Of a stretch of 64,000 bases of DNA, positions 2,809 through 58,793 are shown piece after piece. Source of the stretch: a virus; IMG/VR virus record IMGVR_UViG_3300044981_000021, positions 1 to 64,000 of that record. One strand, written 5' to 3'. The position numbers and the translations under genes are program-made. How positions within the stretch are numbered: position 1 is the stretch's first letter; every line of letters starts with the position of its first letter. The notes beneath the pieces are model-generated. The model saw nothing but the letters and a program-made list of their open reading frames with translations. It was not told where the DNA came from and searched no databases.

Positions 2809-3444
2809 TCAGTGGCGATAGGATTTTACATTCAAATGCCAGTGTTTGGCTCGCACGTCTGATAGGTGGACATCCCCGAACGTGTCCAGTAATTGCTGCC
2901 AAGAAATGGCGTTACATTTTAGCAGCCTAACCAACACGGTACGCCAGCCATATTGAATCTTGGTCGGCAAATCGGCGGTATCGGTGGAGATTATACTGAA
3001 CTCGGGAATGTGTCCCTTGCGGAAGCTAGCATTAGTCCATTCCTTAACTCCGTTGCGCACTAGATAGAATCCGGCACATCCCGACACGGCCTTACTATCC
3101 TCTACGATTAGATCGGGATTAAGTTTCTGAATGCGCCGCACTAGTTCAGATGAATGCATTAGCTTGCCCATCTGTTTCTCTGCATTCTTGAATGATTCCT
3201 GGTCCTCGTATCTTTGGCCATCAATCATCTTGTCGGTGTCCTCCCAGAGTTTAAGTAGTTCTTCTCTGTCTCCCGCAGGCAATAAATTCTCGCGGTGGAG
3301 CGGCTCAACGTAGGATGCCTTCATCCACGCATAGCAATCGACCGTATAGCGTTCTTTTTGCGAAGGAATTGGGGTATAGGTAGTTGCTTCGACAATCTTA
3401 CTCGCCAACGTTTGAACCGTCCAAAATCTTAGGTTTGAATCCAT
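2809..3444 (-). CDS. hypothetical protein, ~211 aa
   Basis: Not recognised. Soluble, charged, with many Lys/Glu helical segments. The start at 3444 (MDSNLRFW) gives a 47-base overlap with the preceding phosphatase gene; an upstream start at 3453 is also possible. It lies between the phosphatase and the glycosyltransferase-methyltransferase gene, so a link to sugar metabolism is possible but not shown. Confidence 0.7.
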   Translation of the reverse strand: MDSNLRFWTVQTLASKIVEATTYTPIPSQKERYTVDCYAWMKASYVEPLHRENLLPAGDREELLKLWEDTDKMIDGQRYEDQESFKNAEKQMGKLMHSSELVRRIQKLNPDLIVEDSKAVSGCAGFYLVRNGVKEWTNASFRKGHIPEFSIISTDTADLPTKIQYGWRTVLVRLLKCNAISWQQLLDTFGDVHLSDVRAKHWHLNVKSYRH

Positions 3445-6268: not shown

Positions 6269-7896
6269 CTATGAGATGGACGCTTCCGCTTTAATTAGTC
6301 TAAAGCGGGGGTGTAACGCCGCACTCTGTGGAACACGCCATTTATTGTTGCTCGCTTTCGCGGAGTCAGTCATTTCTGCTGACTTCTTACGGTTTGCTGT
6401 TCCCGTAAGATCGGACTATCGCATCGCCTTTCGGCGTCTTCTCGCTTAGTCTCTCACGGTGCTTTCGCTTCCGCCTTGTTCCCGTCGCAGGGTTCAAGTC
6501 AATCAGAGAAGATTTTACTGCCACACTTAACTTGTAAAAATGGCAGCGTACTTGAAATTATCTTAAGTTATTTGTTATCAATGCTTTACGTGCATTGAGC
6601 TAGATCATTTCTGTCTAGCTCTGCATGTCGCCATGCAGAACGGACTATCTCTTCACCCTCGCGGGTGCTGCCTACATAGTCTCTACACGTTCCGATTTTG
6701 CATCGGCTTCGCTCGGGATTGTCCCTGTGGGAGTTTCCCCGAATTCAAGCAGTTATCGCAGCCCAATTTCTTGAGTGCGGCCCTATTTTCAGTAAGGCAC
6801 AACTTGCGCCTACAACGCGGGCTGGGTCGGCCACTGATGGCTCCCAGTTCCGCACGATCAACTGATAATTCCGCTGTTCCGGGATTTCAGTTGCGCCAAG
6901 CGACACAGAGAAAACGGCATCCTGTCCAACAACATAGGTGCCATAGCCGGTCTTGGTACCGCTTGGGAAGTTGGCGAAAGTGCTAGCCGTAGTCGTTTCA
7001 ATGAAACGTGCTCCGGCGACATCAATGACACGGTATCCTTGGACTCCGCGCATCAATTCTTCGCTTCCTTCTTTGTGGTACTTCAGGATATCAATCACGC
7101 CACCCGCAGTATTATCGTTCAAACAATCTGTTACCCCGCATTTCTGCGTGGCTACGGCGTTTCCGCGTAGCTCTGCATGTCGCCATGCAGTTCGGACTGG
7201 CTCTTGGCTTTTGGCCTCTCCTGTACAGTCTCTACACATTCCAACTTGCGTTGGCTTAGCTCGGTTTTTACTCGATGAGTGGTTAACCGAATTAGGGAGA
7301 TTACGACCCCGTGAAAGGTCGAACGCTGCGAAGGGGTGAATAATCCCGGCAAACAAGCCATCCGTCTGTGGTCTAACGTCTGCGCCACGAAGGCTCATTA
7401 CGGCCTGGCGGGTCAACGAAGCAGAAAGAAATTCGTTGTCCGTGCAGGAAATAACGATGGTGGTATCGGCGGTAGCCTCAGCTTCAAACTCGGTACGGGC
7501 CAATGTGTTTGCTGTAAGAGCAGCACGGTAGCCCATCTCGGCAGCAGTATTTTCTACGATGGGATCAATTGCTGTTTCGACCAAGATATCCGAGAAGGAG
7601 GCGAAGTCGAAATACTGGTTAGCGGCGACGTTCCTTACGGAAGTCGTAGGGTTAATCCCGGTTCCAACGGTACCTTCTGTGCCCGGCGTGGTGTTTGCAG
7701 CGAAAAGATCGTAACCATAGAGTTGAATTACTCGGCCATTACGGTCTGGAAGTTTACGGCGGCTGGTGACGGCCACAAAGGGCAAATTAGCTTTCAAGTT
7801 TTCTACGGCCACCCGGTCGTAGTAAATACTTGCAAGATGGGTAAGCCCTGCTGTGGTAGTTAAAACACTGGCTGGTTGATAGCTCAATGTTTTCAC
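6269..7896 (-). CDS. major capsid protein, four exons interrupted by three group I introns
   Basis: N4 gp56-like capsid protein. The N-terminus has IYYDRVAVENLKANLPF, then DILVETAIDPIVENTAAEMG, then IIHPFAAFDL. Proposed exons: 7896-7315, 7119-6795, 6561-6540 (22 nt) and 6305-6269. Together they give 966 nt, 321 aa, start GTG at 7896, stop TAG at 6269-6271. Splicing joins HPFAAFDL to NDNTAGGVIDILKY, then VVGASCA to YNFKYAA, and ends IFRLIKAEASIS. Unspliced, a false 383-codon frame reads through intron 1 and stops early in intron 2. Forms the head shell. Lies downstream of the putative scaffold gene after a 191-nt gap. Confidence 0.85.
6306..6539 (-). ncRNA. group I intron 3 in the capsid gene
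   Basis: 234 nt. P1 is a 7-bp helix of exon CTGCCAT with intron GTGGCAG, U-G at the splice site. P7 strands GAGACTA (minus of 6447-6453) and ATAGTCC (minus of 6413-6419) enclose a GCCGAAAGGC hairpin. Proposed 3' end is G at 6306, followed by the last exon. It differs more from introns 1 and 2 than they do from each other. Confidence 0.78.
6562..6794 (-). ncRNA. group I intron 2 in the capsid gene
   Basis: About 233 nt. Core: AATTCGGGG...CCCGAGCGAAGCC, then GAGACTA and GATAGTCC as the two P7 strands. A 23-nt block (6616-6638) is identical to one in intron 1 (7168-7190). The 3' end is G at 6562. The 5' end is less sure: 6794 (exon ...GCC T, P1 through GTGC/GCAC) or 6800 (exon ...AGT T). Both keep the frame into YNFKYAA. 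Confidence 0.78.
7120..7314 (-). ncRNA. group I intron 1 in the capsid gene
   Basis: 195 nt. P1 is exon GACCTT paired with GGGGTC across a TCAC loop, leaving a U-G pair at the splice site. The intron ends in G at 7120. Group I core: P7 strands at 7226-7231 and 7194-7199 on the minus strand, plus the upstream AATTCGG...CCGAGCTAAGCC pairing. The length is a multiple of three with no in-frame stop. No endonuclease inside. Confidence 0.82.
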
Positions 7897-12521: not shown

Positions 12522-12721
12522 CTACATTGCGGGAGATCGCGGAGCGACTGGCGATGAGTTGGTGGGACATCCACCAAGCGGATCATGCTGAATCTGTATC
12601 TATGCTACTTGAGCGGGCAATGCGTCTGGCGATTGAGGCGTCCAAGCAAAGTTATTTTGGCACCGAATCGGAAATCTGCGCTCGCATGGCGGAATTACTG
12701 AAGGCGGATGCACACAAATGA
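12518..12721 (+). CDS. small helical protein, tandem copy 2
   Basis: 67 aa from ATG 12518 (MTTLREIAERLAMSWWDI). Paralogue of 12330-12521 with the same order of motifs. Ends in an ATGA overlap with the next small gene. Confidence 0.7.
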   Translation: MTTLREIAERLAMSWWDIHQADHAESVSMLLERAMRLAIEASKQSYFGTESEICARMAELLKADAHK

Positions 12722-12843
12722 GGATTCCGGTAACCAAGGCGCAGATCGCATGGGCTAAAGACGCTGCCAAGCGCGGCAAGGTTTTGAAAATTGATTTGCG
12801 GACATTCAGAATTAGGGAAGTGAAGGCGGAGGCCAGGAAATGA
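12718..12843 (+). CDS. 41-aa basic protein
   Basis: MRIPVTKAQIAWAKDAAKRG, then VLKIDLRTFRIREVKAEARK. ATGA overlaps at both ends (12718-12721 and 12840-12843) make it a convincing small gene despite its size. Very basic, so it may bind nucleic acid. Confidence 0.65.
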   Translation: MRIPVTKAQIAWAKDAAKRGKVLKIDLRTFRIREVKAEARK

Positions 12844-13022
12844 CCCTTGACGCTGAAGACCGGAAATGGATTCTCTTGCTCTGTGGCAAGTTGCTTCAAA
12901 TGGAAGCAAGCATTTCCTTGTCTACAGGGACGCAACGGCTGGCAGATGCTTTCTCTCTGGAGTTAATACATCCCGACACAGACAAAGCTATGTGTGAGAA
13001 GATTAAAGAGTTGGCAAACTGA
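12840..13022 (+). CDS. hypothetical protein, 60 aa
   Basis: MTLDAEDRKWILLLCGKLLQ, ending DKAMCEKIKELAN. Helical small protein; no function recognised. Last confident gene of the plus-strand island. Confidence 0.6.
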   Translation: MTLDAEDRKWILLLCGKLLQMEASISLSTGTQRLADAFSLELIHPDTDKAMCEKIKELAN

Positions 13023-13025
13023 CAA

Positions 13026-13127
13026 ATGAAAACTCTCTTGGTCGCGCTCGCGCTGCCGCCTGCGGCGTTGGCTGTGGCCATTGGAGGGGGAAACGATGAA
13101 CGACTAGCGCACCAAGTCTCCATCTAG
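13026..13127 (+). CDS. 33-aa ORF, doubtful
   Basis: MKTLLVALALPPAALAVAIG, then GGNDERLAHQVSI. The N-terminus looks like a signal or membrane segment. Its 3' end overlaps the end of the convergent gene 13104-13445. No strong ribosome site. Confidence 0.3.
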   Translation: MKTLLVALALPPAALAVAIGGGNDERLAHQVSI

Positions 13128-13445
13128 GTCGGCAGGATTAGGGTTTAAACCATCGATAATTCTCTGCACCGATTCAGGTTCTAATGTTTCTACGGAATTC
13201 ATTACAGTTTCATGCCACGCCTCGCTAAAAGAAATTATCCCATCTAGCCGTATCTGCATAGCCCACAGTGCGTCTTTGTCTACCCGAGCACGCATAAATT
13301 GCTCCTTAATTTGAGAAATGCGAAGATCGCGCAAGTCTAGATATACGCGCCAGCCTGGATGTTTTATTAAATCAGCCAAATGCCGTGCACGTTCAAAATC
13401 GCGCAGGATGGCTAACTCTTGTTCGCTTAATTGCTCATTGTCCAT
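13104..13445 (-). CDS. hypothetical protein, 113 aa
   Basis: Starts MDNEQLSEQELAILRDF at 13445, overlapping the end of the next gene upstream by 11 bases. Helical and charged. Position after the head genes suggests a virion or head-assembly role, not proven. Confidence 0.68.
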   Translation of the reverse strand: MDNEQLSEQELAILRDFERARHLADLIKHPGWRVYLDLRDLRISQIKEQFMRARVDKDALWAMQIRLDGIISFSEAWHETVMNSVETLEPESVQRIIDGLNPNPADLDGDLVR

Positions 13446-13986
13446 TGTAATTTCCTGGCGATGGCGGTTGATTCTTGATGTCCTGTTCGACGGGATAAAC
13501 ATAAACCGCAGGCCCACTAGAACGCAATGGGCGTTGATGAACTTGTTCCGCATAGGCATCGGCGTGTTCGGGAGTGTCAAATATTCCCATATGCTCGCCG
13601 GTATTGAGGTAATGTTGCCATGCTTCATCTTGCGATAAAACTCTACCATTTACAACCTGCGGCACCAACACTTCGCCTTGGTCTGTTCCGCGACTAAAAG
13701 ATATTTCGGAAGAATGATATCCTGGCTGCCCGGGGGTTGGAATGATGGGGCGGCCAGTAAGATTGATTGTTCCCGGATTGCGCATTCCTACGGGGCGTGG
13801 AGGAGCGGCAGAGCGTGGAGTATGACCAGATTGCAAGGCCATTCGCAACCCCTGATCGCCAATCGCCTTCGCATATCCAGGGTGGGCATGGACGAGTGCA
13901 GCTAGTAATTTTCCATCATCAATCCCGCGATATTCAGGATTATTGGTACGCAGATTCTCTAGAATTTTAAGATGTTCGTCGGCCAT
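13435..13986 (-). CDS. hypothetical virion-associated protein
   Basis: 183 aa. The N-terminal LRTNNPEYRGIDDGKLLAALVHAHPGY resembles the repeat units at the start of the next protein upstream (YPQYKNVSDADLTKALIKKYPQY). The rest is Pro/Gly-rich with HYLNTGEHMGIFDTPEHADAYAE, a motif seen in phage internal proteins. Function unknown. Confidence 0.65.
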   Translation of the reverse strand: MADEHLKILENLRTNNPEYRGIDDGKLLAALVHAHPGYAKAIGDQGLRMALQSGHTPRSAAPPRPVGMRNPGTINLTGRPIIPTPGQPGYHSSEISFSRGTDQGEVLVPQVVNGRVLSQDEAWQHYLNTGEHMGIFDTPEHADAYAEQVHQRPLRSSGPAVYVYPVEQDIKNQPPSPGNYNGQ

Positions 13987-50906: not shown

Positions 50907-50994
50907 TGGTCCTGGCAGCAGGAGTTCAACCCGCACGCCCATTACGAGCACTGCATCCTAAGTGCAGCGTGTCTAGCATTCCACCATGCCGGGA
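50907..50994 (-). tRNA. tRNA-Leu (anticodon TAG)
   Basis: Anticodon stem CTGCA with loop CTTAGGA; long variable arm as expected for Leu; CCA encoded. One mismatch (C-A) in the acceptor stem. Confidence 0.85.
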
Positions 50995-50995
50995 C

Positions 50996-51080
50996 TGGTG
51001 CCCATGGAGCGATTTGCACGCTCACGCCTTGCGGCAGCGGGTCTTAAATCCGCCGTGTATCCTATTCCACCACATGGGCA
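50996..51080 (-). tRNA. tRNA-Leu (anticodon TAA)
   Basis: Acceptor TGCCCAT with ATGGGCA; anticodon loop TTTAAGA; long variable arm; CCA encoded. Confidence 0.88.
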
Positions 51081-51085
51081 AAATC

Positions 51086-51175
51086 TGGTGCATTGGGAGA
51101 GATTTCAACTCTCATTACCCGTAGGGTAGATCGTTTTACAGACGATTGCGACCAAGCGTATTCGCCTCCAATGCA
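51086..51175 (-). tRNA. tRNA-Tyr (anticodon GTA)
   Basis: Acceptor TGCATTG with CAATGCA; loop CTGTAAA between ATCGT and ACGAT; long variable arm typical of bacterial Tyr; CCA encoded. Confidence 0.9.
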
Positions 51176-51261
51176 TGGAGGAAGGTAGAGGAGTTTAACC
51201 CCCATCCCCGTAGGGAGCGACTGGGTTCAGGCCAGTTTGACACACGGTGTCCGTACCTTCC
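51176..51261 (-). tRNA. tRNA-Ser (anticodon TGA), C at position 33
   Basis: Acceptor GGAAGGT with ACCTTCC; long variable arm; loop CCTGAAC within ACTGG/CCAGT. Position 33 is C, not U. CCA encoded. Confidence 0.85.
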
Positions 51262-51262
51262 A

Positions 51263-51351
51263 TGGCGGAGAATATGCGAGTCGAACGCATTCGCCCCTTG
51301 CGGGTGCTCTTGTTTAGCAGACAAGCCCCTTGCCGTCCGGGTCATTCTCCG
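51263..51351 (-). tRNA. tRNA-Ser (anticodon GCT)
   Basis: Acceptor CGGAGAA with TTCTCCG; loop CTGCTAA between CTTGT and ACAAG; long variable arm; CCA encoded. Its 5' end overlaps the end of the nuclease gene 51342-51752. Confidence 0.9.
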
Positions 51352-51752
51352 ATAATAAATTCTTTATATTTATTGCCTACAACAATCATCCATTTGTTGC
51401 CCTTTAATTTACCGTAGGGAATTTCATAACAGTCGCCATCGTTGGTGACCACAAACAACACGTCCGCCGCGTTTACGTTAAACGTGGCATATCTAGCCTT
51501 ACCGTCGGCCCGCATTGATGTTGAGCACAAACGAACAACCCACTTAATTCCACGCTTGCCAATTTTCTTTTGGCAGGTAACTCGTACTTGTATTCGAGAA
51601 AATTTTCCATGCGCAAAAACCACAAGATCGAACGGCTGACTATCGGTCAACGGTATGCATACGGTATGGCCTAGCGATGTATAGTGGGCGATGGCCACAC
51701 CTATACCGTGGTCGCCTTTTTGTTTCGAGCCTCGATGTTCATTTGGCTTCAT
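51342..51752 (-). CDS. PD-(D/E)XK endonuclease in the tRNA array
   Basis: 136 aa. GDHGIGVAIAHYTSLGHTVC, then SQPFDLVVF and SRIQVRVTCQKK, resemble I-Ssp6803I-like and Holliday-junction-type PD-(D/E)XK proteins, with Gln in place of the usual Glu/Asp before Val-x-x. Possibly a homing endonuclease; the last codons lie on a tRNA gene, and the array holds three more endonuclease genes. Confidence 0.72.
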   Translation of the reverse strand: MKPNEHRGSKQKGDHGIGVAIAHYTSLGHTVCIPLTDSQPFDLVVFAHGKFSRIQVRVTCQKKIGKRGIKWVVRLCSTSMRADGKARYATFNVNAADVLFVVTNDGDCYEIPYGKLKGNKWMIVVGNKYKEFIIGE

Positions 51753-51775
51753 ATCGTTAATCTAACATCTAATCT

Positions 51776-51864
51776 TGGTCCGGCCTCTCGGACTCGAACC
51801 GAGAATGCTTTTTAGGGCGGATGATCTTGAGCCATCTGCGGCTTCCAGTTTCGCCAAGGCCGGA
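51776..51864 (-). tRNA. tRNA-Leu (anticodon CAA)
   Basis: Acceptor TCCGGCC with GGCCGGA; loop CTCAAGA; long variable arm; T-loop TTCGAGT; CCA encoded. Confidence 0.9.
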
Positions 51865-51871
51865 TAAATTG

Positions 51872-52078
51872 TTATAGGGATAAACTATACGACAGCCATG
51901 AACGGCTGAGGTTCGAGAGTCGCAATGAGCGTAGAAGAGTCATTGGGGTTACTATGACCGCGCCGATTGCTGTCATGTGAATCAGCGCAGACCGTGCATC
52001 ATTGGCGATTGACCTATCCTCGCGAAAGCCATCTGAGACTTGAATTCCCGTTTCGCTTAACTCAATGTGACAGCCCAT
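51872..52078 (-). CDS. hypothetical protein, 68 aa
   Basis: MGCHIELSETGIQVSDGFRE, then ANDARSALIHMTAIGAVIVT. The second half may be a membrane helix. Reads as coding, with no recognised function. Confidence 0.5.
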   Translation of the reverse strand: MGCHIELSETGIQVSDGFREDRSIANDARSALIHMTAIGAVIVTPMTLLRSLRLSNLSRSWLSYSLSL

Positions 52079-52207
52079 TATAGAGTTAATGTCGGCACCC
52101 TTTACTCTCAGCCGCCTCGGGTGCGAAATGTCCGGTGAAGCAATCGTTCGGTCGTACAGGTCTTTCTATTGGGTGGAATGTCTATCGCGACGTTCCGCGT
52201 TTAAAAT

Positions 52208-52282
52208 TGGGAGCAGGTACCGGATTTGCACCGGGTCTAAGCGTTATGAGCGCTTCGTATTGTCCTGCGCTACTAACCTGCT
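52208..52282 (-). tRNA. tRNA-Met/Ile2 (anticodon CAT)
   Basis: Acceptor AGCAGGT with ACCTGCT; loop CTCATAA between AAGCG and CGCTT; CCA encoded. A1-U72 argues against an initiator. Elongator Met or lysidine-type Ile cannot be told apart. Confidence 0.88.
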
Positions 52283-52288
52283 TCGATG

Positions 52289-52318
52289 ATTAAAGCATGA
52301 GCGCGGGACGCGAGTCAA
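52289..52318 (-). promoter_or_regulatory. promoter-like sequence ahead of the tRNA
   Basis: On the minus strand TTGACT, 18 bases, TTTAAT. The predicted start is at the tRNA 5' end. Would allow separate expression of the CAT tRNA. Confidence 0.5.
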
Positions 52319-52321
52319 GTT

Positions 52322-52885
52322 TTATTCCGTGTCGAACTCAACCATTTCTTCGCCCTTGAATTTTACTTGTTGAAGAATTTCTAGTGGAATCAATCCATTC
52401 CTATATGCGACGATTACGCGATATTCTTCGAGTTTCAACTGACCCTTGAGTTTGTTGCACTCTAGGCAACAAGGAACTTTGAGTTTTCCGCCAAGACTTC
52501 GGGGCGTAACGTGGTCCTTGGTCCTAATAGCGTCCTTGGTGCAGTCTGTCATGTCCCGTCCGCAGTAAAAGCAACTGCTGTAATACTGCCGTGGCGTGAT
52601 ATTCGGGAAAAGCTTAATTCCAGGAATTTTGGGGGCCGATAACTGTATCGACTTAGGTTTTTTATCAGGAGCTAGGCGAATAAGGTGTTTTTCGCCAACG
52701 GTATGCGGAAGTACACAGGTTCCGTTCGGAGCAACACATTCTACTGGTTCTACCGAAATACCGCCACGGGGAACATTTCCAAAATGATATTGGAAGCGTT
52801 GATCGGCTTCTGTGATATCTTCGGCATCACAGGCAAGAATAATCTTGCCCCCGCTATAGCGGTCGCGATAGATGTAGTGCTTCAT
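52322..52885 (-). CDS. HNH endonuclease
   Basis: 187 aa. CFYCGRDMTD, then TKDHVTPRSLGGKLKVPCCL, then ECNKLKGQ is a zinc-bound HNH. Inside the tRNA array, so possibly mobile. Confidence 0.85.
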   Translation of the reverse strand: MKHYIYRDRYSGGKIILACDAEDITEADQRFQYHFGNVPRGGISVEPVECVAPNGTCVLPHTVGEKHLIRLAPDKKPKSIQLSAPKIPGIKLFPNITPRQYYSSCFYCGRDMTDCTKDAIRTKDHVTPRSLGGKLKVPCCLECNKLKGQLKLEEYRVIVAYRNGLIPLEILQQVKFKGEEMVEFDTE

Positions 52886-53057
52886 GGTTGGGCTAGGTTA
52901 ATTTATGGTCAGCGGCAAGTCAAGTTTCTCGCTTTAACATTTTAGTTATAACGCCATCGTTATTTTTACAACCTGAGCTATTTTGCTCAGTATTGGCTCC
53001 CCAAACTTTATAGCCTTGTCACAGATCGTGACATTCCAACCAAGAGAGGAAAACACA

Positions 53058-53327
53058 ATGAACGTGCAAACACTGGCTGAAATCATCGAAAACCTGAGAG
53101 CGCAAGGCAAAGCATTCAACGAAGCCGCCGATACGCTTCAGGACAACAGGGGAAACCAGCAGAACGGAAATGGCCGCGCTAACGGCTTTTTAAGGCTGCC
53201 TCCACACGGAAACGCTGGGCGGCACATGAGCGCGGAGACTCGCAAGAAAATGTCGGCATCGCAGAAGGCGCGACATGCTTCCAAGCATATCCCTGCGATA
53301 GTGTCGGTTGATGATATGGTTGCCTAG
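53058..53327 (+). CDS. small NUMOD3-like protein on the plus strand
   Basis: 89 aa from ATG 53058, with AGAGAGG upstream. Start MNVQTLAEIIENLRAQGKAF; the end HMSAETRKKMSASQKARHAS resembles NUMOD3 motifs. Plus-strand orientation is rare here. A weak TTGCTC-18-TTTATA promoter lies near 52981-53011. Confidence 0.62.
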   Translation: MNVQTLAEIIENLRAQGKAFNEAADTLQDNRGNQQNGNGRANGFLRLPPHGNAGRHMSAETRKKMSASQKARHASKHIPAIVSVDDMVA

Positions 53328-53473
53328 GCAACTAATTCATCTTCGGGTTCTGGCGTAGGTATGTATTCATCGTATCCGCCCCAGAACCCGTCGTCCTTTG
53401 CGACAGGGGGTGCGTAGGACCACAGGATGATCCACGCTAGGATTAGGGCAACGGTGATTAGGTAGGCAAGCAT
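53324..53473 (-). CDS. 49-aa membrane protein
   Basis: MLAYLITVALILAWIILWSY is a membrane helix, followed by an acidic tail. Convergent with 53058-53327: the two stop codons share CTAG. Confidence 0.6.
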   Translation of the reverse strand: MLAYLITVALILAWIILWSYAPPVAKDDGFWGGYDEYIPTPEPEDELVA

Positions 53474-53477
53474 AAAA

Positions 53478-53552
53478 TGGTCGGGGTAGCTGATTCTGCC
53501 ACAGCAACCCCTCGGTCCCAGGCCGAGTGCTCTGCTTTTGAGCTATACCCCG
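53478..53552 (-). tRNA. tRNA-Pro (anticodon TGG), C at position 33
   Basis: Acceptor CGGGGTA with TACCCCG; loop CCTGGGA between CTCGG and CCGAG, position 33 C. The T-loop is atypical (no TTC). CCA encoded. Confidence 0.8.
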
Positions 53553-53557
53553 AAATT

Positions 53558-53634
53558 TGGTGGGACGGGCCAGAATCGGACTGGCTACCACATGGGCTTC
53601 AGCCATGCACTCTACCGGCGAGTTCCACGTCCCA
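53558..53634 (-). tRNA. tRNA-Phe (anticodon GAA)
   Basis: Acceptor TGGGACG with CGTCCCA; loop CTGAAGC between CATGG and CCATG; CCA encoded. Confidence 0.88.
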
Positions 53635-53687
53635 AAATATTTTAGTGCGCTTGATAAAGTTTACGCAACCACGTCATAATAACACTT

Positions 53688-54227
53688 ATGAAGATAGCCA
53701 TCCATCATGGTAAACGCCGCAAACTTTATGAAACAAATTGCCAACACTGCAAGATATCGTTTTATACGCCAAAACATAAACTAGACAAACAGTTGTCAAA
53801 GTATTGCTCCTTGCCGTGTTTCCACGCGGCCTCACGAACGGCAACAATAAAACCGTGCGCCATATGCGAAAAACAAATCACGAGAACTCTAACGGCCTTG
53901 TCGCGATGCAAAAGTGGCCTATTTTTCTGCTCACGTAAATGTAAATCCATAGGCCAAAGATTTGAAAATACAACCATGGCCGCCTGCCATCCTGCGCATT
54001 ACAAGGATGGTTCTTCGGCCTACGGTAGAATTGCGATTCGCCACCACGGTAATCACTGCAATCGTTGTGGCTACAAAGAACATATTGAAATACTCCGCAC
54101 TCACCATAAAGACAGAAATAGCGAAAACAACTTGCCGGATAACCTTGAGCGCTTATGCCCAAATTGTCACGAAACTGAACATTTTTTAGCGGGCGATGGT
54201 GTTTATACTGGACACAAACGCCACTAG
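53688..54227 (+). CDS. zinc-finger HNH endonuclease on the plus strand
   Basis: 179 aa. Several Cys pairs (CQHC, CSLPC, CAIC, CSRKC) then NRCGYKEHIEILRTHHKDRN, SENNLPDNLERLCPNCH: zinc fingers plus HNH. Homing-endonuclease-like, inserted between tRNA genes. Confidence 0.82.
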   Translation: MKIAIHHGKRRKLYETNCQHCKISFYTPKHKLDKQLSKYCSLPCFHAASRTATIKPCAICEKQITRTLTALSRCKSGLFFCSRKCKSIGQRFENTTMAACHPAHYKDGSSAYGRIAIRHHGNHCNRCGYKEHIEILRTHHKDRNSENNLPDNLERLCPNCHETEHFLAGDGVYTGHKRH

Positions 54228-54243
54228 CTCACTGCTCAAAATT

Positions 54244-54318
54244 TGGTGGAGGCGCGGAGAGTCGAACTCCGGATACTTGGTTGCAGGCCAAGTGTGTTCC
54301 CGCTAGCACTACGCCCCC
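54244..54318 (-). tRNA. tRNA-Ala (anticodon TGC), C at position 33
   Basis: Acceptor GGGGGCG with CGCCTCC, giving the G3-U70 Ala identity pair; loop CCTGCAA between CTTGG and CCAAG, position 33 C; CCA encoded. Confidence 0.85.
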
Positions 54319-54320
54319 AT

Positions 54321-54396
54321 TGGGGTATACGAGGAGGGTCGAACTCCCTAAAGACTGTTCCACAGACAGTCGCCGCACCGTTTGGCTTCGCATACC
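54321..54396 (-). tRNA. tRNA-His (anticodon GTG)
   Basis: Acceptor GTATGCG with CGTATAC, an extra 5' G opposite C73 as in His tRNAs; loop CTGTGGA; CCA encoded. Confidence 0.88.
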
Positions 54397-54414
54397 ATAA
54401 CTTGGAGCTGAACG

Positions 54415-55173
54415 TCAGGCTTCAACTGACATCTCCGAATTCACAAGATTCGTGTTCTGGTTTTGAACTAGTTCAGCAATTTCTCTAAATTCTCTTGTCC
54501 GTCTTTTCTTTCGCCTAGAAGCACTTGCTTGTTTATTTCGTGATCGAAACGTGGGCGTCAAGGCGTGGCAATTAGGGCATAGCAATTTCAGGTTTTCGTC
54601 CTTATTGTTGTCGGCGTCTCCGTTGATATGTTCTATTTCTAGGGGTATTGGTTTTTGCAGCCACTCGGTCAAGCCGCAACTTTCGCACCGATACCCACGA
54701 GTTCTAAATAAATATCCACGTAATGCATGACTAGTCCTAGCCGTTTCGGGAGAAGTGGTTAGACAATAAATCCGCATTCCGTAACACGAATTACAGAATT
54801 TCCTATGCGTCGAGCACGGCGTTCCACAATGTTCACACTGTCCGGACGTGAGTGCTCGCTTGCGGCGATGTTTTAAGTAACACGCCCGACTACACGACCG
54901 CTGCTTTCGCTTCTCGTATGACATCTTTTCGCCACAATAAATACAACGCTTATTAGCAGCTTTTTCTCTAGCCGCCAAGGAAATCCCAACTCTAAATGCA
55001 GTCAATTTGTCTTTGGCTGCCAACCATCCGATGCGCCCAACATCTTCCCTCGACATTATCGGCTGTTCCCGTGGATCGTTTGTGTATATTCTTCGTGTTG
55101 TTTTTAAGGTGCGATCCCGATTCTTGTAATACCACCTGCGACGAGCCGCACGCCTTTTATCTTGGTTGCGCAT
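54415..55173 (-). CDS. HNH endonuclease with zinc fingers
   Basis: 252 aa. N-terminal basic region (RRAARRRWYYKNRDRTLKTT), zinc pairs CIYCG, CEHCGTPC, CESCG, then IPLEIEHINGDADNNKDENL, then LLCPNCHALT: HNH. Third endonuclease of the array. Confidence 0.85.
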   Translation of the reverse strand: MRNQDKRRAARRRWYYKNRDRTLKTTRRIYTNDPREQPIMSREDVGRIGWLAAKDKLTAFRVGISLAAREKAANKRCIYCGEKMSYEKRKQRSCSRACYLKHRRKRALTSGQCEHCGTPCSTHRKFCNSCYGMRIYCLTTSPETARTSHALRGYLFRTRGYRCESCGLTEWLQKPIPLEIEHINGDADNNKDENLKLLCPNCHALTPTFRSRNKQASASRRKKRRTREFREIAELVQNQNTNLVNSEMSVEA

Positions 55174-55181
55174 ATAAATGT

Positions 55182-55255
55182 TGGAGCCAAGAATACGAAT
55201 CGGACGTATGCTTCGGTCGTACCAGGACCGCGTACTGCCACTATACGATCAAGGC
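55182..55255 (-). tRNA. tRNA-Thr (anticodon GGT), weak acceptor
   Basis: Loop CTGGTAC between CGGTC and GACCG; T-stem ATACG/CGTAT. Acceptor GCCTTGA with TCTTGGC has two T-T mismatches at pairs 4 and 5; CCA encoded. Confidence 0.75.
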
Positions 55256-55257
55256 TC

Positions 55258-55332
55258 TGGAGCCGAGACGGCGAATCGAGCGCCGATAACGAGTTTACGA
55301 ATCTCGCATTCTTCCACTTGAATTATCCCGGC
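55258..55332 (-). tRNA. tRNA-Thr (anticodon CGT)
   Basis: Acceptor GCCGGGA with TCTCGGC; loop TTCGTAA; T-stem CGGCG/CGCCG; CCA encoded. One A-A mismatch at the base of the anticodon stem. Confidence 0.85.
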
Positions 55333-55338
55333 CAAACT

Positions 55339-55413
55339 TGGACTGCCGTGAGCGAATCGGACGCTCGTATAAGGTTTTGCAGACCTCAGCCTAAACCACT
55401 CGGCCAACGGCAG
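55339..55413 (-). tRNA. tRNA-Cys (anticodon GCA)
   Basis: Acceptor CTGCCGT with ACGGCAG; loop CTGCAAA between GAGGT and ACCTT; CCA encoded. Confidence 0.9.
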
Positions 55414-55422
55414 TAAAATCTA

Positions 55423-55517
55423 GGTGTACGGTCCAAGAATCGCCGCGTTCCCGAATCGAACGGACCAACGCCACTGCTGCCTTGCAAGCGACCAGCGCCT
55501 TGTTGCGCACATACACC
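55423..55517 (-). tRNA. degenerate tRNA-like element
   Basis: An 8-bp end stem (GGTGTATG with CGTACACC), a GCGC/GCGC D-like stem and a TTGCAAG loop suggest a tRNA reading Cys or Ala. The element is about 95 nt, with ~20 extra bases in the T-arm and no CCA. Probably inactive. Confidence 0.4.
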
Positions 55518-55525
55518 TAGAACTT

Positions 55526-55598
55526 GGAGCGGGATGCCGTAATCGAAACGGCGTCTGGAGTTTGGAAGACTCCGGCCTTGCCACTAGACGAATCCCGC
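55526..55598 (-). tRNA. tRNA-Gly (anticodon TCC)
   Basis: Acceptor GCGGGAT with ATCCCGC; loop CTTCCAA between GGAGT and ACTCC; CCA encoded. Confidence 0.9.
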
Positions 55599-55700
55599 TT
55601 ACTCAACGCATACACCGTTCATGTTTGTGGCGGTGCATTCTAAACAAAATTCTACCGCATGTTTAACGCATGGATACTGCTTCCAGCCATGCCTAGCCAT
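55599..55700 (-). CDS. 33-aa Cys/His-rich small protein
   Basis: MARHGWKQYPCVKHAVEFCL, then ECTATNMNG. A longer upstream frame is only a shadow of tRNA-Trp. Metal-site-like residues. Low certainty. Confidence 0.45.
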   Translation of the reverse strand: MARHGWKQYPCVKHAVEFCLECTATNMNGVCVE

Positions 55701-55744
55701 GTAATGATCCCAATGGCTAGCGACCCAATAGCGGGGTCGCGAAC

Positions 55745-55820
55745 TGGCACCAGCGCCGTGAGTCGGACACGGTACATCTGTTTTGGAGACAGATCGAGCA
55801 CCCTTTTCGTCTTCGCTGGC
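55745..55820 (-). tRNA. tRNA-Trp (anticodon CCA)
   Basis: Acceptor GCCAGCG with CGCTGGT (G1-U72); loop CTCCAAA between ATCTGT and ACAGAT; T-loop TCCGACT; CCA encoded. The D-stem is weak. Confidence 0.82.
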
Positions 55821-55867
55821 AAAAATCTTCTTGAACAACTTCATTAAACGAACTTCCTTTCGTAATC

Positions 55868-55946
55868 TGGCGGTCGCAGCGGAATTTGAATCCGCGATCT
55901 GTTCCGTGACAGGGAACTGGGGACGGCCTGACTCCCCTATGCGACC
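55868..55946 (-). tRNA. tRNA-Asp (anticodon GTC)
   Basis: Acceptor GGTCGCA with TGCGACC; loop CTGTCAC between GTTCC and GGAAC; CCA encoded. Confidence 0.88.
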
Positions 55947-56128
55947 GAATCTTTACAATGCGTACAGATGCATCCCCTGCCATGCAATTTAGAGATGCAC
56001 TTACTGCACCAAAGTTGCGCCCAACCACCACAAAGTTTCTCGCCAATCACGTGCTCCTTTGCGTCCATGACGGTCATAACTGCCCCGCTGCACCTGTGGC
56101 AAAACCCGATATGTTTCACGTGCGACAT
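55937..56128 (-). CDS. zinc-ribbon small protein
   Basis: 63 aa. CHRCSGAVMTVMDAKEH, then CSKCISKLHGRGCICTHC. Multiple Cys pairs, likely zinc. Its 3' end overlaps tRNA-Asp by 10 bases. Confidence 0.68.
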   Translation of the reverse strand: MSHVKHIGFCHRCSGAVMTVMDAKEHVIGEKLCGGWAQLWCSKCISKLHGRGCICTHCKDSVA

Positions 56129-56133
56129 AAAAA

Positions 56134-56207
56134 TGGCCCCGAGTAGTTGAATCGAACAACTGTTGGCTGATCCAGAGTCAGCAGTCTTGCCACTAAACGA
56201 ACTCGGA
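56134..56207 (-). tRNA. tRNA-Gln (anticodon CTG)
   Basis: Acceptor TCCGAGT with ACTCGGG (U1-G72); loop CTCTGGA between GCTGA and TCAGC; CCA encoded. Confidence 0.88.
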
Positions 56208-56212
56208 AATCT

Positions 56213-56246
56213 TGGAGCCGGGAGTATTTTAATGAGCTATCCCGGC
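56213..56246 (-). tRNA. mini tRNA: acceptor hairpin only
   Basis: 34 nt: a perfect 7-bp acceptor (GCCGGGA with TCCCGGC), the first bases of a D-arm (TAGCTCA), and CCA, but no anticodon arm or T-arm. Likely a deleted tRNA; the acceptor resembles that of tRNA-Thr (CGT). Confidence 0.6.
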
Positions 56247-56308
56247 GCGCTCACTCGCGGAGCGTTGTCTGAAAAGGCGATCAACCCTCCAGTCGCAACG
56301 ACGCAAAA

Positions 56309-56382
56309 TGGAAGGGAGTCTGAGAATCGGACTCAGGTCTGATGATCCAAAGTCATCGGCATTGCCATTATGCGAACTCCCT
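56309..56382 (-). tRNA. tRNA-Gln (anticodon TTG)
   Basis: Acceptor AGGGAGT with ACTCCCT; loop CTTTGGA between GATGA and TCATC; CCA encoded. Confidence 0.9.
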
Positions 56383-56566
56383 AACTCTTCAACGGAATTG
56401 CGCGTACGCATCTCGCGCAAATCACAAAACTTGAATCTACATCTTTTTCTAGTTTGCGCCGCGCCTCGCGACATTCTTCCACTAGGGCACGATGGTCTGA
56501 TAGCCCCATGCGGCAGTAATCTATCGTCCCGGGCATTACAATCGCGCCTAGAAGTTCATGCTTCAT
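56381..56566 (-). CDS. hypothetical protein, 61 aa
   Basis: MKHELLGAIVMPGTIDYCRM, ending SSFVICARCVRAIPLKS with a CARC pair. Overlaps the upstream small gene by 11 bases. Function unknown. Confidence 0.6.
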   Translation of the reverse strand: MKHELLGAIVMPGTIDYCRMGLSDHRALVEECREARRKLEKDVDSSFVICARCVRAIPLKS

Positions 56567-56711
56567 AAATCCTTAACTCAAATGGCCCAAAGCGGTAACT
56601 TGTGTACGGGCTATATCCCCACATAAGCGTCCCGTTCATGCGTAACGTCTTGCCAAAACTCCATGCATCCCAATATGCGTGCCACGTTACGAGTTTGGAG
56701 CCGATAGTCAT
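56556..56711 (-). CDS. 51-aa small protein
   Basis: MTIGSKLVTWHAYWDAWSFG, then KTLRMNGTLMWGYSPYTSYR. Trp/Tyr-rich, plausible coding. The stop overlaps the start region of the next gene. Confidence 0.58.
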   Translation of the reverse strand: MTIGSKLVTWHAYWDAWSFGKTLRMNGTLMWGYSPYTSYRFGPFELRIYEA

Positions 56712-56718
56712 AAATCCT

Positions 56719-56793
56719 TGGTAGGGCCAACGGAAGTCGAATCCGTATTCACGCCTTGAAAGAGCGTTTACCTAGCCGTTAGTAGATGGCCCC
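56719..56793 (-). tRNA. tRNA-Glu (anticodon TTC)
   Basis: Acceptor GGGGCCA with TGGCCCT; loop CTTTCAA between ACGCT and GGCGT; CCA encoded. Confidence 0.87.
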
Positions 56794-56982
56794 AAAACTT
56801 TATACGGTCGCAGAATTGGCTATCACGGCCTCCGCGTATTCCACTAAGGGGCCATAACGCCTGCTATATCTCTTGTTTTTGCTTTGCTCCTTTGGCGTTG
56901 CCCAACGAACATTGCCACGTTCGTAATGACCGTTATTGTTTATCCTTTCTAGTGTTGAACCCTCCGGCCTCGGGCCTAATTC

Positions 56983-57144
56983 TTACATGAATTCGCCAAA
57001 CGAAACAAATCTAAATTCTATCCCCCTGCCGCCGTAGTACCTGAAATCTTCGCAATTACTATTCATGCAACGGTATCGCGCATGGTCGAAAGATTTATAT
57101 TCCCGCTTAAATTGTTTCGTTAAGCCACTTCCCGAAAATCTCAC
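56983..57144 (-). CDS. 53-aa YGGRGI-family fragment
   Basis: GTG 57144 after AGGAG. KREYKSFDHARYRCMNSNCE, then DFRYYGGRGIEFRFVSFGEF resembles the YGGRGI motif family of phage DNA-binding or endonuclease-associated proteins. Shorter than usual; likely a fragment or minimal form. Confidence 0.58.
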   Translation of the reverse strand: MRFSGSGLTKQFKREYKSFDHARYRCMNSNCEDFRYYGGRGIEFRFVSFGEFM

Positions 57145-57166
57145 CGTTAATCTCCTAAAAAACGTT

Positions 57167-57194
57167 TAGCCCCGCATTGTTTTTCGGGGCTAAT
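57167..57194 (-). terminator. hairpin terminator
   Basis: TTAGCCCCG pairs with CGGGGCTAA; on the minus strand it is followed by ACGTTTTTT. It would end transcription from the tRNAs to the right before the small gene at 56983-57144. Confidence 0.65.
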
Positions 57195-57199
57195 TGAAC

Positions 57200-57212
57200 T
57201 ACGTTAAATGTA
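57200..57212. promoter_or_regulatory. near-copy of the 13-bp palindrome
   Basis: TACGTTAAATGTA, one base from the consensus on the other strand, in a non-coding stretch between a tRNA and the 57144 start. Confidence 0.5.
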
Positions 57213-57350
57213 CTTTCCCCGATTGTTTATGGCGTACCTTCCCCCGCCTGCCATTGGGCTGGTGTCGGGAAGCAATCGGCATGAAATTGAACATTCATTG
57301 GTTAATGAAACAAGCCTAAAGCATGTCTGCTTGTTCTGTCAAGAAAAAAG

Positions 57351-57427
57351 TGGAAGGCCGGATCGGACTTGAACCGACAACCTCAAGATTCGGAATCTTG
57401 CGCGAGTTCCCTTTTCGCTTCCGGCCC
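57351..57427 (-). tRNA. tRNA-Arg (anticodon CCG)
   Basis: Acceptor GGGCCGG with CCGGCCT (G1-U72); loop TTCCGAA between CAAGA and TCTTG; CCA encoded. A TTGACA-like box (57337-57342) follows on the minus strand. Confidence 0.88.
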
Positions 57428-57430
57428 AAA

Positions 57431-57507
57431 TGGTCCTAGCGACAGGATTCAAACCTGCATTCAACTGTTTAGGAAACAGTGCCGTTGTTCAGTTACGGAA
57501 CGCTAGG
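57431..57507 (-). tRNA. tRNA-Arg (anticodon CCT)
   Basis: Acceptor CCTAGCG with CGCTAGG; loop TTCCTAA between ACTGT and ACAGT; CCA encoded. Confidence 0.9.
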
Positions 57508-57833
57508 AAAATCGGCCACAAGTCAAACTGCAAACTTTCGCTAGCTACTTCGTCCTTCTGCGCTGGGCCACTCACGACGGTTAAGCTCTATCTATCCCAG
57601 CCTTCGGTCGGCTCTTTCCTCCGATTAGGGGCGTCATCTTCCAGACTTTTTGCCAACTTCGTTGGTTCCACTAGAACCATTACTGGATTGCATCTAACTT
57701 CGCCAACGCGACACTAGATCGACTTTCGGGAGCGGGTTAGATACCCGTTGCTTGGCCAAGCATCCCCTCGGCTAGTCGTCCAACCGGCAAGCGGCAGTTT
57801 TTTCGTGGCCGAAATAAATATAACACGGGAAAA
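57508..57833. other. 326-nt stretch without a confident gene
   Basis: Only two very short minus-strand ORFs joined by an ATGA overlap and, near 57714-57790, T-arm-like and D-arm-like pieces that do not fold into a standard tRNA. I see no convincing gene. Confidence 0.5.
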
Positions 57834-57911
57834 TGGTGCAGGATAGTGGACTCGAACCACTCGCCTCGGCTTTCGTAGAACCGCGCTCTAGTCCTGATGA
57901 GCTAATCCTGC
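57834..57911 (-). tRNA. tRNA-Arg (anticodon ACG)
   Basis: Acceptor GCAGGAT with ATCCTGC; loop CTACGAA; CCA encoded. A34 would need editing to inosine by a host enzyme. Confidence 0.9.
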
Positions 57912-57916
57912 AAACT

Positions 57917-57991
57917 TGGGAGCGCATAACCGGGTCGAACGGTTGTCTCTTAGGTAGAAGCCAAGGCTCTGTCCTGTTGAGCTAATGCGCC
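57917..57991 (-). tRNA. tRNA-Arg (anticodon TCT)
   Basis: Acceptor GGCGCAT with ATGCGCT; loop CTTCTAC between CTTGG and CTAAG; CCA encoded. Confidence 0.87.
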
Positions 57992-57998
57992 ACAATTC

Positions 57999-58074
57999 TG
58001 GTGGAAGTGAGACGATTCAAACGTCCATCGGCCTACTTAAAAGGTAGGGGTCTTAATCGTTAGACGACACTTCC
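57999..58074 (-). tRNA. tRNA-Lys (anticodon TTT)
   Basis: Acceptor GGAAGTG with CACTTCC; loop CTTTTAA between CCTAC and GTAGG; CCA encoded. Confidence 0.9.
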
Positions 58075-58079
58075 AAAAC

Positions 58080-58154
58080 TGGTGGAGCGCAATGGACTCG
58101 AACCATTGTTTCCCGAGTAAGGGTCGGGTTGCCTAGCCACTGACGGAGCGCTCC
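58080..58154 (-). tRNA. tRNA-Lys (anticodon CTT), C at position 33
   Basis: Acceptor GGAGCGC with GCGCTCC; loop CCCTTAC between CCCGA and TCGGG, position 33 C; CCA encoded. Confidence 0.87.
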
Positions 58155-58160
58155 TAAAAA

Positions 58161-58238
58161 TGGTGCGGAATATTGGAATTGAACCAATGGCCTCGTCCTT
58201 ATCAGAGACGCGCTCTAAGCCAACTGAGCTAATTCCGC
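58161..58238 (-). tRNA. tRNA-Ile (anticodon GAT)
   Basis: Acceptor GCGGAAT with ATTCCGC; loop CTGATAA; CCA encoded. Confidence 0.9.
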
Positions 58239-58239
58239 A

Positions 58240-58315
58240 TGGTGCCGGAGCCAAGACTCGAACTTGGGACTTCCTGCTTGTAGGGCAGGCACTCTGGCCG
58301 CTGAGTTAATCCGGC
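58240..58315 (-). tRNA. tRNA-Val (anticodon TAC), C at position 33
   Basis: Acceptor GCCGGAT with CTCCGGC (one T-C mismatch at pair 7); loop CCTACAA between CCTGC and GCAGG, position 33 C; CCA encoded. Confidence 0.85.
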
Positions 58316-58317
58316 AC

Positions 58318-58392
58318 TGGTTGAGGGCGATGGAATCGAACCATCCCGAAACAGTGTTTATAAGACGCCGCAGCGCTCCAGTGCTGCCCTCA
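58318..58392 (-). tRNA. tRNA-Ile (anticodon TAT)
   Basis: Acceptor TGAGGGC with GCCCTCA; loop CTTATAA; one mismatch in the anticodon stem; CCA encoded. TAT is an uncommon Ile anticodon in bacteria. Confidence 0.82.
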
Positions 58393-58397
58393 AAATC

Positions 58398-58473
58398 TGG
58401 TACGAGTGGGAGGAATCGAACCTTCCGACACCGTGGTTATGGGCCACGTAATCTACCACTGATCTACACTCGC
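58398..58473 (-). tRNA. tRNA-Met/Ile2 (anticodon CAT), C at position 33
   Basis: Acceptor GCGAGTG with CACTCGT (G1-U72); loop CCCATAA between CGTGG and CCACG, position 33 C; CCA encoded. Not a clear initiator. Confidence 0.85.
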
Positions 58474-58698
58474 TCAACTTAAACCGCCTACGCGCCATTT
58501 ATCGTTGATTTGCGCGTATTCCTGCTCAATCTTTCCAACCCGAACCACGGTCCAACGGCGTTCATTCATAAGCGATTCTTCGTGGTCGAAGGTTACGACG
58601 TTACCGCGCTTTAATCTCCACGATGCATCTACCCATGCAGTCGTATGGCGAACACCGCCATTTACTTTACGCTCGAATTGGACTTGAACCATCCTCAT
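58474..58698 (-). CDS. hypothetical protein, 74 aa
   Basis: MRMVQVQFERKVNGGVRHTT, ending YAQINDKWRVGG. Strand-rich, plausible small protein in the tRNA array. No recognised function. Confidence 0.65.
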   Translation of the reverse strand: MRMVQVQFERKVNGGVRHTTAWVDASWRLKRGNVVTFDHEESLMNERRWTVVRVGKIEQEYAQINDKWRVGGLS

Positions 58699-58705
58699 AA
58701 AAATA

Positions 58706-58793
58706 TGGCTGGCACGAGAGGACTCGAACCTCCAGAGGGTTGCCCCACTTCATTAACAGTGAAGCCCGCTACCAAATTACGGTTTACATGCCA
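58706..58793 (-). tRNA. tRNA-Asn (anticodon GTT) with a long variable arm
   Basis: Acceptor TGGCATG with CGTGCCA, G73; loop CTGTTAA between CTTCA and TGAAG; T-stem GGAGG/CCTCT. The variable region is ~14 nt and can pair GGG with CCC, unlike normal Asn tRNAs. Confidence 0.8.

Follow-up and report, generated by a model that had tools for sequence, protein, structure and literature searches.

Three predicted small group I introns and a 22-nt exon in the N4-gp56-family major capsid gene of an uncultivated tailed phage

The window analysed here (64,000 nt; positions 1 to 64,000 of the virus record IMGVR_UViG_3300044981_000021, which comprises 100,880 bases) contains a major capsid gene of the N4-gp56 family at 6269-7887 on the minus strand, and this gene is interrupted by three group I introns, the second and third of which enclose an exon of only 22 nt. 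The capsid pre-mRNA of this uncultivated tailed phage (approximately 101 kb) very probably carries three self-splicing, endonuclease-free, mobile introns, the removal of which would yield a capsid protein of 330 amino acids.

The capsid product matched TIGR04387 (E 8e-21; 74.6 bits, above the curated cut-off of 60, as scored on the joined form of the original prediction) and phrog_1357 (E 1e-20), which bears out the N4 gp56 capsid identity proposed for it. A scan of viral contigs provided 28 loci with relatives, 18 of which have an intron-free capsid gene with one uninterrupted frame across all three sites (79-87% identity to the window product in 17 of them, and 34% in the remaining one). Among cultured phages, Tunturiibacter phage Tunturi_3 has the closest capsid gene, which matches in one piece with 33% identity. 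Alignment of the window to the intron-free relatives gave the start and end of each insert, and hence four exons, all on the minus strand. Exon 1 (7316-7887), which carries the TIGR04387 and phrog_1357 matches, starts by homology with TTG at 7887 (GTG at 7896 is also possible) and has its 3' end at 7316 (GACCT). Exon 2 (6795-7123) begins at base 7123 (TTTGAACG). Exon 3 (6540-6561; 22 nt) encodes (A)YNFKYAA(M) and is contiguous with its neighbours in the relatives, and exon 4 (6338-6269; first base 6338, GCGTGTTCC) encodes RVPQSAALHPRFRLIKAEASIS and the stop codon, in agreement with the C-terminus of the intron-free relatives. Together, the four exons (572 + 329 + 22 + 70 nt) encode exactly 330 amino acids plus stop, the same length as in the intron-free relatives; intron removal would thus restore an intact gene. 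The predicted junctions (marked by a hyphen) are CGACCU-UUUGAACG across intron A, UGUGCCU-AUAAUU across intron B, and GCUGCCAU-GCGUGUU across intron C. The unspliced open reading frame (6745-7896) passes through intron A and stops early, within intron B.

This early stop had been predicted, as had the 22-nt exon at 6540-6561 and intron B at 6562-6794, each to the base. Three of the six splice positions of the original prediction are right; the alignment moved the other three, i.e. the ends of intron A (from 7314/7120 to 7315/7124) and one end of intron C (from 6306 to 6339), so that the introns are indeed small, but with sizes of 192, 233 and 201 nt instead of the 195-234 nt given before. Joining the four exons had been said to restore a normal capsid C-terminus, which holds, but the product proposed was 12 residues short of 330 amino acids: the corrected site of intron A adds one leucine (FDLLNDN), and intron C had been drawn 33 bases too long, its correction adding RVPQSAALHPR to exon 4.

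Intron A (7124-7315, minus strand; 192 nt) lies between the codons for L and LNDN and has a near-identical copy at the same site in contig L020; intron B (6562-6794, minus strand; 233 nt) precedes YNFKYAA; and intron C (6339-6539, minus strand; 201 nt) represents a divergent lineage. No endonuclease gene is present in any of the three, all of which are too short to hold one. Intron B is the only one detected by Rfam (RF00028, Intron_gpI; 68.3 bits at 6621-6783, cut-off 50), with introns A and C below the threshold. Since the Rfam scan of the relatives and of the remainder of the record also gave nothing above threshold, a model (R1) was made from an alignment of six small introns (intron B and five from relatives), with introns A and C held out. 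Far above chance, R1 found both intron A (138.6 bits, E 8e-44; match 7124-7328) and intron C (53.6 bits, E 4e-16; match 6339-6536), and the two held-out matches stop at the 3' ends derived from homology (7124 and 6339, respectively); the score of intron B (215 bits) is that of an intron that was part of the model. Across the whole 100.9-kb record, R1 matched the three capsid introns and nothing further. The group I folds originally predicted are in this way recovered by Rfam for intron B, and for introns A and C by the held-out model but not by Rfam.

All 13 junctions in the window and its relatives have a U at the end of the exon, a P1 helix with a closing U-G pair, and G as the last base of the intron; together with the R1 matches, these junctions confirm the three complete cores, the P1 helices with U-G and the final G that had been read in the capsid gene. 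P1 is CGACCU/GGGUCG in intron A and GCUGCCAU/GUGGCAGU (8 bp) in intron C; that of intron B is weak, with only 4 bp. In the introns of L004 and L019 at their common site D, the exon and guide sequences have changed in concert. The P7/P8 core motif (GTAGAGACT...AGTCCG) was located at 7193-7235 in intron A and at 6641-6686 in intron B (both minus strand) with a pattern for which no match is expected by chance, and the P7 strands pair in both. For nine related introns, with P7 entered as a pseudoknot, 96.2% of the pair cells are paired and 39 of 51 core pairs have changed on both sides, as high a result being reached in none of 500 shuffles; the counts lean towards the model in that six of the nine introns also built R1 (introns A and C and the L020 copy of A did not). 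The covariation score for the nine introns is 0.707, whereas controls with a slid partner strand do not exceed 0.087. Three P7 pairs (G-C, G-C, A-U), including the guanosine site, are invariant in all nine introns, and the other P7 pairs covary. Inspection by eye gave no convincing P10 pairing of guide and 3' exon. The usual subgroup of phage introns is IA2; its mark, P7.1/P7.2, is absent here, with only approximately 3-4 nt between the P7 5' strand and the P3 3' strand of the aligned introns, and the introns are classed as group I without a subgroup. Taken at the level of sequence, the model matches, covariation, P1, P7, and the empty sites in relatives identify the three inserts as group I introns.

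For their removal, the end of each upstream exon would pair with the guide sequence of the intron (P1, with U-G at the cut), a guanosine bound at P7 would attack the 5' site, and the exons would be joined after the last G of the intron, i.e. the usual two-step reaction started by guanosine; three such reactions would lead to the 330-aa capsid protein. The structure, the sites, the empty sites, the joined product and an identity tract at intron A (see below) are read from the sequence; that the introns are spliced, in which order, with the short exon included, and that endonucleases drive their movement is inferred. The 22-nt exon would serve as the 3' exon of intron B, and its last eight bases form the exon strand of P1 of intron C. 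This exon is probably retained, as the introns on either side of it belong to different lineages and skipping should thereby be limited: introns B and C share just 49% identity in the core, and skipping would shift the frame.

Among the relatives, introns or their remnants occur at nine sites of the capsid gene, after coding nucleotides 72, 99, 572 (site A), 611 (G), 829 (E), 842 (D), 901 (B), 923 (C), and 965 (H), and site A is occupied by at least three different introns. Similarity crosses sites: intron A of the window and of L020 groups with the L026 intron at site G, the site D introns of L004 and L019 group with the L023 intron at site A, and intron B of the window groups with the L019 intron at site H, in a tree in which some nodes are weakly supported. 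In 20 related records, picked for having the capsid gene and several of them fragments, R1 found introns in the capsid gene only. A further N4-gp56 capsid gene, at L116 (5830-7371; approximately 38% protein identity), has four introns matching the intron family of the window, two of which enclose a 30-nt exon for YNVKYTTTLR; this exon shares the YN(F/V)KY motif with the 22-nt exon of the window, and its flanking sites are one base upstream of B and four bases downstream of C. The insert at coding nucleotide 72, found in contig L019 only (3335-3375; 41 nt), has a 7-bp P1 with U-G and a final G, no intron core, and brings TAA into frame; it is possibly an intron remnant or an assembly error. Translational bypass was also considered for this insert and was rejected for lack of matching take-off and landing codons, with P1 and the final G making an intron remnant the likelier origin. 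The loci L022 and L026 are the two ends of one 103-kb contig (IMGVR_UViG_3300050821_002969) and overlap inside the capsid gene; hence, this contig is probably a complete genome, circular or circularly permuted.

Between the window and L020, both with intron A, identity is 95.8% up to 60 nt from site A and 77.9% far away from it, and a comparable rise at site A was found in no other pair. Such a tract is as homing with co-conversion would leave it behind. High-identity tracts between L026 and the window lie also away from shared introns, which indicates that the capsid gene recombines in general. The introns are probably mobile passengers; intron A was probably exchanged with another phage lineage along with its flanking exon sequence, and the capsid gene is probably a recurrent target of this intron family, sometimes aided by endonucleases in sister introns or encoded just downstream. 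Endonuclease-like genes were found inside introns K and E and inside the L026 copy at site A, and two more (77% identical) lie directly downstream of the capsid gene in L004 (5284-5814) and L019 (5411-5992), which have the gene-less intron D in common; collaborative homing with intron D is possible for these two. The Pfam threshold was passed only by the gene of intron K (LAGLIDADG_3), for which no sequence link to the other endonuclease-like genes was found; those of intron E, of the L026 intron and of the downstream position show weak mutual similarity. A search of the whole record for relatives of the sister-intron endonucleases gave none.

Other readings of the capsid gene were weighed against three spliced introns. 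Intron A might be translated as a 64-codon insertion of the capsid protein, with only introns B and C spliced: its 192 nt are a multiple of three without an in-frame stop, in step with the capsid frame, both here and in L020, and the unspliced frame passes through it. We regard this as very unlikely, given that intron A has a full group I core that was found by a model made without it, that the two copies differ at six bases, most of which alter an amino acid and four of which make up two compensated pairs in the RNA, that other introns at site A contain stop codons, and that the insertion would break the conserved DL(L/M)NDN motif. Slightly less probable still is a capsid gene that is a pseudogene or an assembly error, with one or more introns dead or misassembled. 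The record is a metagenome assembly, and the core-less L019 insert with its in-frame stop illustrates that defective copies can turn up in assemblies; against this, each of the three introns has an intact core and guide helix, an independent contig (L020) has intron A as well, and the joined protein shares 96-98% identity with that of relatives despite a DNA difference of approximately 20%, which shows selection on the spliced product.

It is somewhat more conceivable, though unlikely, that the introns are kept as regulators, with splicing or the skipping of exon 3 setting the amount or form of the capsid protein. Exon skipping is known from Twort orf142 and from a polymerase gene of the Bastille group (PMC10136302, PMC11878797), and the capsid gene has been hit repeatedly in the relatives; but skipping of exon 3 would cause a frameshift and an early end (...SCACVFHRVRRYTPALD), the cores of introns B and C are dissimilar (see above), and close relatives do without introns at sites B and C. 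Splicing of three mobile passenger introns is thus the reading that we retain.

The intron family extends to other phage genes. A protein-blind scan with a core motif, which was derived from the capsid introns, gave further loci (incompletely dereplicated), and R1 made 111 matches over 76 of these, often several per gene. The open reading frames beside the best intron are mostly major head proteins of many PHROG families (1357, 10, 9953, 2522, 2263, 544, 1328, 14242, 267, and 752), in addition to a major tail protein (e.g. at L099, among the core-motif loci L075-L154) and HNH endonucleases, and some head-protein genes have 3-5 introns. When another group I core motif was scanned as a control, many head and tail genes again came up, along with genes for terminase and RNA polymerase; the capsid preference, strong in the intron family of the window, is therefore partly general and not exclusive to this family. 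At L149, five tandem R1 matches lie within 1.1 kb (12568-13663) near the end of a phrog_9953 capsid gene, and two more upstream (10689 and 11405); exons of 33, 45, 22 and 22 nt are plausible there, with several other joinings possible. Automatic prediction of splice sites in distant relatives was ambiguous for L082, L089, L092, L104, L109, L128 and L135 and was not relied on. In cultured phages, the closest DNA matches of intron B are terminase introns of SP6-like phages and Vibrio phage VEN, which score 78-80 bits with R1; these differ from the capsid introns of the window in their host gene, and an annotated homing endonuclease adjoins the VEN intron. We propose tentatively, and with slightly less than even confidence, a lineage of very small group I introns that has specialised on those phage virion genes with the highest expression, chiefly major capsid genes of several unrelated families, and that spreads between sites of one gene and between phages, accumulating to 3-5 introns per gene with exons of approximately 20-45 nt.

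Earlier work has already described group I introns in capsid genes of phages, phage genes with three introns, and exons of approximately 22 nt (PMC3706429, PMC7886860, PMC11878797, PMC10136302). The tail tube protein gene orf142 of Staphylococcus phage Twort is reported to have three group I introns, the second and third of which are separated by an exon of 23 nt (Landthaler and Shub 1999, as cited in PMC10136302 and PMC11878797); these two introns are highly similar, of subgroup IA2, and the exon is partly skipped (PMC10136302). Twort orf142 resembles the gene of the window in having three introns in a virion structural gene and a tiny exon, and differs from it in encoding tail tube instead of capsid protein and in the introns flanking the short exon, which are divergent and without P7.1/P7.2 in the window. 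In the crAss-like Zeta-group genome OLRF01000054, the major capsid gene is in five fragments with putative group I introns (PMC7886860); three of the four intervening segments encode intron-type protein domains, in contrast to the non-coding introns of approximately 200 nt in the window, and crAss-like phages are a different group from the window phage. The original prediction was right that three introns in a phage capsid gene are unusual, though Twort orf142 (PMC10136302) and this five-piece capsid gene (PMC7886860) are precedents. The major capsid gene intron of mycobacteriophage LittleE, whose splicing was shown by RT-PCR (PMC3706429), likewise follows a U and ends in G, but is single and contains an endonuclease-like frame, unlike the three of the window, which lack an endonuclease gene. 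Bastillevirinae have up to three group I introns per phage gene, with partial exon skipping in one (PMC11878797); these average approximately 800 nt and reside in polymerase, terminase and reductase genes. The open-licence literature searched yielded no capsid gene for which close relatives together show nine intron sites, and no family of small group I introns with a comparable concentration on capsid genes. What is new is the setting, i.e. the nine-site capsid gene, the similar introns at different sites, and the tract of raised identity at site A.

Polymerase, reductase and terminase genes are where phage introns are usually described, and the reason for this was raised as a question in a recent survey (PMC11878797); in the window phage, the target is the capsid gene. 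With different introns at nine sites of one gene, gain, transfer and shifting between sites can be read almost as in an experiment, and since each particle needs very many copies of the capsid protein, splicing efficiency is put to a hard test by three splicings and an exon of 22 nt. The standard RNA library finds only one of the three introns, so that viral databases probably list such capsid genes as truncated. Elsewhere in the window, an array of 25 tRNA genes was found at 50907-58793 on the minus strand.
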